Shown in pieces: positions 30,445-31,811 of a stretch of DNA of 64,000 nucleotides; position 1 is the first letter of the stretch, and every line of letters starts with the position of its first letter. Under the pieces are notes generated by a model. It did not search any database. It was not told the origin of the DNA and saw only the letters and a list, made by a program, of their open reading frames with translations. Where the stretch lies: positions 593,586 to 657,585 of the forward strand of contig JAHBVS010000001.1 of NCBI GenBank assembly GCA_019637445.1, given 5' to 3'. The position numbers and the translations under genes were made by a program. The DNA comes from Gemmatimonadaceae bacterium (GTDB taxonomy: Bacteria; Gemmatimonadota; Gemmatimonadetes; Gemmatimonadales; Gemmatimonadaceae).

Positions 30445-30519
30445 CTAGCAACAGCCGCTGCCGCAGCTCCCGCCGCAGCCACAGCCGATGCCACCGCAAC
30501 ACCCTGACCTGTCCTTCAT
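30445..30519 (-). CDS. 24-residue Cys-rich microprotein
   Basis: ATG 30519 is preceded by AAGGAGG four bases away, the best ribosome site in this region, and the frame runs to TAG 30445. The peptide is MKDRSG followed by CCGGIGCGCGGSCGSGCC: 24 residues, 7 Cys, 9 Gly, no hydrophobic segment. CC, CxC and CxxxC spacings could bind soft metals (Cu, Zn, As, Fe-S) or be a modification substrate. It is the next gene, 36 bp after the SigZ-like sigma factor, whose own C-terminus carries a CC pair, so co-expression is likely. It is too short for normal gene finders. I know no named family; metal binding is an inference. Confidence 0.65.
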   Translation of the reverse strand: MKDRSGCCGGIGCGCGGSCGSGCC

Positions 30520-30555
30520 CCTGCCTCCTTGGTCTCGCGGCGGTCCATTCCGCCG

Positions 30556-31188
30556 CTACTTCCGAAGACGCTGGATCTGGTGAAAGGACGCAGGGGCGGC
30601 GCAGCTGGAGCCATCGTCGGACTCCTGCCGACGGAGAATGCCGTGCCTGTCGAGATGCACCCCGCAGCAGTGCTCGATCTCCGTCCGCACCTTGGCGCGG
30701 GCGCGCTGCACCCGCGATTTCATCCCGGAAAGCGAAATGCCGGCGCGCTCGGCGGCCTGTTCCTGCGTGAGGCCGTCGAAGGCGGTCCAGCGCAGCGCCG
30801 AACCGTAGGGCTCCTCCAGCGCGAGGACAAACGCGCGGACGCAGGGAGCAAGTTCGGAGAGCGCGTGCCGCTCGTCCTCCGGCTCAACGGTGAGCGAGTC
30901 GGGCTCCACGTCGCTGCCGCGGGCTTCGCGACGGCGCTGCGCGCGCAGGGCATCAGCCAAGGCCGAGCGGGCCGCGCGGAAGACCCACGCCTCGAGGTCC
31001 TGCACGCGCTGGAGCGTGTCGCGGTGTCGCGTCAGCCGGAGAAATACATCCTGGACGATGTCCTCGGGGTCTAGGCTGTGGGGCGTGCGCCGGCGCACGA
31101 ACGCACGCACGGCGGCCGCGAACGCGGTCCAGCGGGCGTCCGCCGCAAGTTCGAGGTCGCCGGCAGGTAGGCTGTGGACGTGGGGCAC
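30556..31188 (-). CDS. ECF/SigZ-like RNA polymerase sigma factor
   Basis: A 210-residue sigma-70 family protein with region 2 (SLDPEDIVQDVFLRLTRHRD, about 39-58; AWVFRAARSALADALRAQ) and region 4 (AFDGLTQEQAAERAGISLSG then MKSRVQRARAKVR, about 135-168). After region 4 comes EIEHCCGVHLDRHGILRR, the CC-x-V-x-L-D-x-x-G extension seen in SigZ-type factors, then an extra Ser/Ala-rich tail with one Cys. No anti-sigma gene is adjacent; a redox or metal response through the cysteines is possible. GTG start. Divergent from the SET gene, with 65 bp between them, and followed by the Cys-rich microprotein. Confidence 0.85.
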   Translation of the reverse strand: MPHVHSLPAGDLELAADARWTAFAAAVRAFVRRRTPHSLDPEDIVQDVFLRLTRHRDTLQRVQDLEAWVFRAARSALADALRAQRRREARGSDVEPDSLTVEPEDERHALSELAPCVRAFVLALEEPYGSALRWTAFDGLTQEQAAERAGISLSGMKSRVQRARAKVRTEIEHCCGVHLDRHGILRRQESDDGSSCAAPASFHQIQRLRK

Positions 31189-31253
31189 GCCCTAGAAGAC
31201 GCCGCATCGGACGGAAGGACGCAAGAGCCGCGGTTCCGCGCGTAGATTCCGGC

Positions 31254-31811
31254 GTGCCATCCCCCACCCAGAAGCGCCGACCGTCTTCAGAACGTCCCTG
31301 GGCTGTCCGTCGCTCCCCCCGCCACGGCCGCGGCGTCTACGCCACCGCGCGCATCCCCGCCGGCACGCGCATCATCGAGTACACGGGGGAGTTGATCTCC
31401 GAGGCCGAGGGCGAGCGCCGGTACCCCACCCTGCCGAGTGGCGAGGAGGAGCCGGAGCACACCTACCTGCTCACCCTCGACGAGCAGCGGGTGATCGACG
31501 CCAACGTGGGCGGCAACGCCGCGCGGTTCATCAACCATTCCTGTGAACCCAACTGCGAGCCGATTGCGTATGGCGACCATATGTGGATCGTGGCCATCCG
31601 TGACATCCGCCCCGGCGAGGAGCTGGCGTATGACTACGCCATCGAGCTCGACGAACCGCACACGCCCGCACGCAAGCGGCGCTTCCCCTGCCGCTGCGGC
31701 GCGCGCCGCTGCCGTGGGTCGATCCTGAAGCCCAAGTACCAGCCGCTGCATCCGCTGGTCCGTGCGGCCATCCGCCGCTACGGGCCGTCGGCACGCGACG
31801 CGCGGGCATAG
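31254..31811 (+). CDS. SET-domain protein-lysine methyltransferase
   Basis: A 185-residue compact SET protein that would move methyl from S-adenosylmethionine to lysine. Seen: RHGRGVYATARIPAGTRIIE with YTGELIS, the NHSCEPNCEP motif, EELAYDYAIE, and a Cys-rich post-SET end CRCGARRCRGSILKP that would complete a zinc site. All catalytic elements are present and the length matches minimal bacterial SET proteins. The target is unknown; the family is best known for eukaryotic histones, so transfer from eukaryotes or use on a bacterial chromatin or ribosomal protein are both possible. GTG start, 4 bp before the DUF445 gene. Confidence 0.9.
   Translation: MPSPTQKRRPSSERPWAVRRSPRHGRGVYATARIPAGTRIIEYTGELISEAEGERRYPTLPSGEEEPEHTYLLTLDEQRVIDANVGGNAARFINHSCEPNCEPIAYGDHMWIVAIRDIRPGEELAYDYAIELDEPHTPARKRRFPCRCGARRCRGSILKPKYQPLHPLVRAAIRRYGPSARDARA

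Follow-up and report, generated by a model that had tools for sequence, protein, structure and literature searches.

Below the gene for an ECF sigma factor in a Gemmatimonadaceae bacterium lies a reading frame of only 24 codons packed with cysteine and glycine, which raises the question of whether so short a frame is a gene at all and what it might have to do with its neighbour. The window analysed here is a stretch of 64,000 nucleotides of contig JAHBVS010000001.1 (assembly GCA_019637445.1). The original prediction, made from the letters alone, regarded the frame as a hidden microprotein and the pair as a minimal metal or redox response unit, in which the peptide buffers or reports the ligand of a cysteine-bearing sigma factor. 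The predicted frame, with its seven Cys, nine Gly and AAGGAGG site, is indeed present (Table 1), and its ATG follows the sigma stop codon after 36 nt. The peptide consists mostly of Gly and Cys and contains vicinal (CC) as well as CxC motifs. Among the 419 open reading frames of 15–60 amino acids in the window, two contain at least 20% Cys, and of these two only the 24-residue frame has a strong ribosome site. Searches against Pfam and NCBIfam, metallothionein profiles included, returned no significant match for the peptide.

Table 1. Features of the sigma factor and microprotein locus (positions are those of the window)
Feature	Position	Strand	Remarks
SigZ-like ECF sigma factor gene	30556..31188	minus	210 aa, GTG start; conserved Cys 116, 174, 175 and 196
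Promoter-like element 1, TGCGTCCTTCCGTCCGATGCGGCGTC	31198..31223	minus	just upstream of the sigma start
Promoter-like element 2, TGCGTCCTTTCACCAGATCCAGCGTC	30567..30592	minus	within the last sigma codons (ASFHQIQR), ahead of the peptide
Leader hairpin GCGGCGG-N6-CCGCCGC	30537..30556	minus	near the predicted 5' end of the peptide transcript; conserved
Ribosome-binding site AAGGAGG	30524..30530	minus	purine-rich site kept in all six sigma-bearing genomes
Cys/Gly-rich microprotein MKDRSGCCGGIGCGCGGSCGSGCC	30445..30519	minus	24 aa, 7 Cys, 9 Gly

The original prediction had staked itself on conservation of the frame and its ribosome site in related genomes. In a sample of 17 genomes of the genus, the sigma factor is encoded in six, including the window genome, and the five orthologues are 50–57% identical to the window protein. 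At the corresponding position behind the sigma gene, all six genomes carry a Cys-rich frame that has diverged in sequence and is preceded by a purine-rich ribosome site. The orthologous peptides (MNDAMLLGGAENCCEGGGGGCCGGEETGCC, MRKHSVKADTTGCCEGGTCCGSCDCC, MRDLSLKAESNGCCEGGTCCGSCDCC, MPTDLMDRSEPGCCEGDVSGCCGGEPSGCC and a 77-residue version that ends in SGGCC) range from 24 to 77 residues, and their sequences vary so that the Cys clusters alone are kept. In five same-genus genomes, the peptide frame contains 6–8 Cys, as compared to 0–2 in the other two frames. For the closest pair (L003/L004), the Cys core shows one synonymous change and no amino acid change while the N-terminus has diverged, although the numbers are small. 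Cys-rich frames downstream of SigZ-like sigma genes, which the original prediction proposed to search for elsewhere, were also found in Acidobacteria and in another Gemmatimonadota family. Judged by this sequence conservation, the tiny Cys-rich peptide is a real gene and not a product of chance.

The two genes also appear to move together. In the nine sigma-less genomes of the genus in which both ends were readable, lon ends a short way from the SET-domain gene, and the two genes would not fit in between. Because of this clean absence, sigma factor and peptide behave as a cassette, placed on the opposite strand. For the same reason a functional partnership with lon or the SET-domain gene was rejected as incidental. 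The SET-domain gene next to lon (31254-31811; Pfam SET, 1.6e-27) is found in 16 of the 17 genomes, and a second, more distant SET-domain paralogue is usually present as well.

The protein encoded next to the peptide is an ECF (group 4) sigma factor: it scores above the Pfam cut-offs for Sigma70_r2 and Sigma70_r4_2, contains regions 2 and 4 only, and its best Foldseek matches are ECF sigma factors (predicted structure with a mean pLDDT of 86 and a pTM of 0.49). The best NCBIfam families are SigZ models, but with 134.5 bits against a curated cut-off of 168.65 for TIGR02959 and 136.8 bits against 212 for NF007215 the window protein stays below both, and we therefore call it SigZ-like. Relatives of the same group exceed the TIGR02959 cut-off (L134, 187.5 bits; L091, 214.6 bits). 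The protein ends in ...EHCCGVHLDRHGILRRQESDDGSSCAAPASFHQIQRLRK, and the CC-containing extension after region 4 that had been noticed earlier is genuine, but it is not specific to this gene, as C174 and C175, located just behind region 4, are present in 70 of 70 aligned SigZ-like members. C116 in the sigma2–sigma4 linker is found in 56 of the 70 and is missing from many ArsM-type members; it is the single linker Cys in all six orthologues of the genus. Further towards the C-terminus, C196 shows only moderate conservation, being present in 38 of 70 with alternatives close by; it is the only C-terminal Cys beyond the CC pair in the window sigma, while relatives have one to six. A Pfam and NCBIfam profile search of the neighbouring genes revealed no anti-sigma gene beside the sigma gene, in agreement with the original prediction.

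How the two genes might be coupled is suggested by a promoter-like element that the original prediction overlooked, together with the arsenic link and the hairpin in the peptide leader described below. Sigma factor and peptide are each preceded by one copy of TGCGTCC-N15-CGTC. No third copy was detected in the window genome, even when two mismatches were allowed, and a regulon beyond the locus was therefore rejected. With the strict pattern, each of the six sigma-bearing genomes of the genus contains two sites at the locus, G003 contains one more elsewhere, and none of the 11 genomes without the sigma factor contains any. Additional matches in G003, G008 and G012 are not located ahead of obvious targets. 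The peptide-side element overlaps the last sigma codons in five genomes of the genus, but is located after the sigma stop codon in L006 and likewise in L137, which shows that its conservation is not a by-product of protein conservation. The shared element makes it very probable that sigma factor and peptide are co-regulated, and the sigma factor itself would be the protein that uses it. Across 395 genomes of the phylum, background matches to a looser version of the pattern are few. One genome, G201, stands out with 34 loose-pattern matches (e.g. L218-L247), which belong to a genome-specific, dispersed TC-rich repeat and were consequently discarded as promoters or as a regulon. Within positions 31186-31223 of the window, the −10-like CGTC of the first promoter precedes the GTG of the sigma gene by just 9 nt; the sigma mRNA may thus be nearly leaderless in the window genome, while relatives have a ribosome site there.

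The hairpin that had been predicted just after the peptide stop codon did not hold up: it is no better than those of shuffled sequences (z −0.5), and as it also lacks a T run, it was dismissed as a terminator. The hairpin ahead of the ribosome site does exceed the shuffles (z −3.07). A 7-bp stem with a 6-nt loop is present in eight of nine leaders from Gemmatimonas and Acidobacteria, at nearly the same distance from the promoter; L006 has a shorter and imperfect stem. The stems were compared ungapped from the best stem, because a MAFFT alignment misplaced them. In Acidobacteria they read GGCCGCG, GACCGCG or GCTCGCG with their complements, and they differ from the Gemmatimonas stems in pairs 3–6, which are swapped in both arms. 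No Rfam family reached its threshold for the leader (isrG, 15.5 bits versus 100). The hairpin might protect a short mRNA or control translation, although both roles are guesses.

To place the locus in a wider context, SigZ-like sigma factors were gathered from many phyla. Two features defined the group, a CC behind region 4 of the protein and a TGCGTCC-N15-CGTC element at its locus, and the window locus has both. The element is present at 97 of 106 SigZ-like loci, as compared to about 2.35 expected from shuffles, in a sample that was drawn with the motifs of the query itself. It occurs in Myxococcota, Nitrospirota, Acidobacteriota, Actinomycetota, Pseudomonadota, Cyanobacteriota and Chloroflexota, follows the consensus TGCGTCCTTT-N12-CGTCT and, at 89 of 103 loci, has a spacer of exactly 15. 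The gene that separates the element from the sigma gene, classified by BLAST against a few representatives combined with a simple ORF caller, is ArsI-like at 39 loci, ArsM-like at 33, a DF-family or Cys-tail protein at eight and a Cys peptide at three. Some of these eight (e.g. L060, L079) were probably classified through their Cys-rich tail alone and are better seen as Cys peptides. At three loci (L082, L091, L115), in Cyanobacteria and Nitrospirota, a gene for a DF-family (seleno)protein-like product with a Cys-containing tail replaces arsI or arsM ahead of the sigma gene.

Cys peptides are encoded after the sigma gene at eight loci. In the types that lack the enzymes, such peptides occupy their position: downstream of the sigma gene in Gemmatimonas, Acidobacteria and another Gemmatimonadota family (L136, L137), and upstream of it at L060, L062, L079 and L139. 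In Actinobacteria, the sigma gene faces a convergent arsI (L088, L110) or Cys-peptide gene (L108), which carries a separate copy of the element on the opposite strand; at L111, a matching site is located at the same distance. In a sigma factor tree, those members from Gemmatimonas and Acidobacteria whose peptide gene lies downstream form one cluster (support 93/81). The original prediction knew of no description of such a pair, but its uniqueness is not supported, as SigZ-like sigma factors with Cys-rich peptides or Cys-tailed proteins exist in several phyla. What remains of the proposed response unit is a pair that is real, conserved and, given the shared element, very probably co-regulated, and to which a metal-type response would fit, but which is not unique.

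Representatives of the neighbouring genes score above cut-off in the NCBIfam models of ArsI/CadI, arsenite methyltransferase and ACR3. Genes for ACR3 and ArsK-like proteins are located near SigZ-like sigma genes in relatives, and the vicinity of the L071 sigma gene encodes an ArsK-like MFS protein and an ArsO-like flavoprotein, both below cut-off. None of the arsM genes of the window's genus carries the element, and the arsenic link is therefore provided by homology of the wider group only. A second connection comes from the peptides themselves. Plasmids of Afipia and Hydrogenophaga encode, between arsR and a gene for an MFS transporter, a FAD-dependent oxidoreductase whose C-terminal tail is similar to the L006/L071-type peptide (GCCGG...ACCALDAEVK...GCGCGA...GCC); Bosea has a match of this kind, again flanked by arsR and an MFS gene. 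At L071 (Kofleriaceae), the sigma reading frame continues into the Cys-rich stretch, and genes for a related flavoprotein and an MFS protein come next. The same Cys-rich module seems to exist both as an enzyme tail in plasmid ars islands and as a free SigZ-linked peptide. Because the other outputs of the group are arsenic enzymes, a trivalent arsenical would be the likeliest ligand, with cadmium or another thiophilic metal as a possible alternative; ArsI/CadI proteins have a connection to cadmium as well.

Taken together, we favour, with a probability of roughly 60%, a self-contained stress cassette of two genes, in which an autoregulated and probably arsenical-responsive sigma factor that operates without an anti-sigma factor is combined with a ligand-trapping, metallothionein-like peptide. 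The sigma factor would sense a thiophilic ligand, most likely a trivalent arsenical, via C116, C174-C175 and C196. In its active state, it would recognise TGCGTCC-N15-CGTC ahead of its own gene, resulting in positive autoregulation, and the second site inside the end of the sigma gene would generate a short, hairpin-led mRNA for the 24-residue peptide. The peptide is predicted to bind the ligand via its vicinal and CxC thiols and would thereby contribute to detoxification. By withdrawing the ligand also from the sigma factor, it might close a homeostatic loop and return the sensor to its resting state. Since the window genome contains no other predicted target, the peptide itself is the presumed effector, most simply as a chelator. 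Of the two roles predicted originally, buffering the ligand fits better than reporting it. For the SigZ-like group as a whole, we propose more tentatively, and at somewhat less than even odds, a widespread family of one-component arsenical-sensing sigma factors that bind the ligand on their own cysteines and use TGCGTCC-N15-CGTC as a dedicated promoter. Their outputs would range from arsI/arsM operons to a lone Cys-rich microprotein that detoxifies the ligand and resets the sensor, with a second promoter inside the sigma coding sequence.

The same regulation could also serve another thiophilic metal (Cd, Zn, Cu, Hg) or thiol-oxidising stress, with the peptide as a general metallothionein-like or redox buffer. 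This is unlikely, yet deserves serious consideration, because the name of the ArsI/CadI family includes the cadmium response, no ars gene of the window's genus is placed under the element, and CorE2, the nearest studied analogue, responds to Cd and Zn, and CorE responds to Cu (PMC10141476). Against it speaks the presence of arsM, an arsenic-specific enzyme gene, between promoter and sigma gene at 33 loci, as do the nearby ACR3 and ArsK-like genes.

Somewhat less probable is that the peptide acts as a metallochaperone or direct modulator that exchanges the ligand with the sigma factor or ArsM, either delivering or removing it, as implied by the idea of a reporting peptide. Similar Cys-rich tails on enzymes (ArsI, ArsM, the flavoprotein, the DF family) in the same kind of operon, and the L071 tail in frame with the sigma factor, are consistent with such a role. 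In the window genome, however, the peptide is the sole predicted target and the element precedes no gene for a partner enzyme; moreover, the variation from 24 to 77 residues with retention of the Cys clusters alone suits chelation more than a specific interface.

We consider it very unlikely that the leader hairpin or a small RNA is the functional product and the Cys-rich frame incidental. The compensatory changes in the hairpin would agree with an RNA function, but Cys richness is confined to one frame despite divergence, the ribosome sites are kept, the Cys core of L003/L004 lacks amino acid changes while the N-terminus varies, and no Rfam family is matched at threshold. Even less credible is the reading of the peptide as a natural-product precursor that is modified after its synthesis on the ribosome: some heterocyclised precursors are likewise rich in Gly and Cys, but no modification enzyme adjoins the cassette, whose neighbours are lon, the SET-domain gene and DUF445, and the cassette is present or absent as sigma factor and peptide alone. 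Finally, although GC-rich DNA generates many short frames, as the 419 in the window illustrate, a chance frame after an ordinary sigma gene has virtually no credibility for a sequence that is kept at all six orthologous loci, in Acidobacteria and in another Gemmatimonadota family, each with its own element and ribosome site.

By analogy, the two-gene cassette may be filed under a known kind of system, the metal-responsive ECF sigma factors that lack an anti-sigma factor. Its sigma factor has its best family match in SigZ, with which it shares the CC tail after region 4, but it falls below both curated cut-offs. In CorE, a Cys-rich extension senses the metal (PMC8999054, PMC3107203), and CorE-like proteins (former ECF44) feature a CxC in the sigma2–sigma4 linker (PMC8999054). 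CorE and CorE2 (former ECF44, now partly ECF238) have no anti-sigma factor, and no anti-sigma gene lies beside the window sigma gene either; their Cys-rich C-terminal extension may have a counterpart in the CC pair and C196 of the window protein. They are metal-responsive and partly autoregulated, two traits that are predicted for the window sigma. As the window protein has a single C116 in its linker in place of CxC, it is not a member of CorE. In addition, CorE is surrounded by copper genes, whereas the SigZ-like group is surrounded by arsenic genes or Cys peptides. We know of no Cys-rich microprotein that accompanies CorE. Bacterial metallothioneins resemble the peptide in being small and Cys-rich with CC and CxC motifs and in their metal-stress induction, which is predicted here, but the peptide has no Pfam or NCBIfam match, comprises only 24 residues, mostly Gly and Cys, and its metal binding is a prediction.

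Our literature search, outside of which most subscription papers lay, found no description of a SigZ promoter, ligand, function or arsenic link, and neither an ECF sigma factor tied to arsM or arsI nor these peptides. The conserved element would offer a concrete promoter and predicted regulons for SigZ-type sigma factors across many phyla. It would also tie the group to arsenic metabolism, for which most descriptions otherwise name ArsR-type repressors as the regulators. With one sigma factor, one 24-residue peptide and two predicted promoters genome-wide, the Gemmatimonas version comes close to the smallest unit of sensor and effector, and might be used as a compact orthogonal expression switch or arsenic reporter. 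The peptides would also add a class of microproteins that are invisible to genome annotation.

A related solution is found in ArsR-controlled ars operons, such as that of Afipia pOC167, which encode a Cys-tailed FAD oxidoreductase and an MFS exporter. In these operons, a comparable Cys-rich module forms the C-terminal end of the flavoprotein; an ArsR-type regulator gene lies alongside, and there is neither a dedicated sigma factor nor a free peptide. In the plasmid ars islands L162 (5732-7099), L163 and L165, an ArsO-like FAD oxidoreductase encoded beside an MFS transporter likewise ends in a Cys-rich tail.
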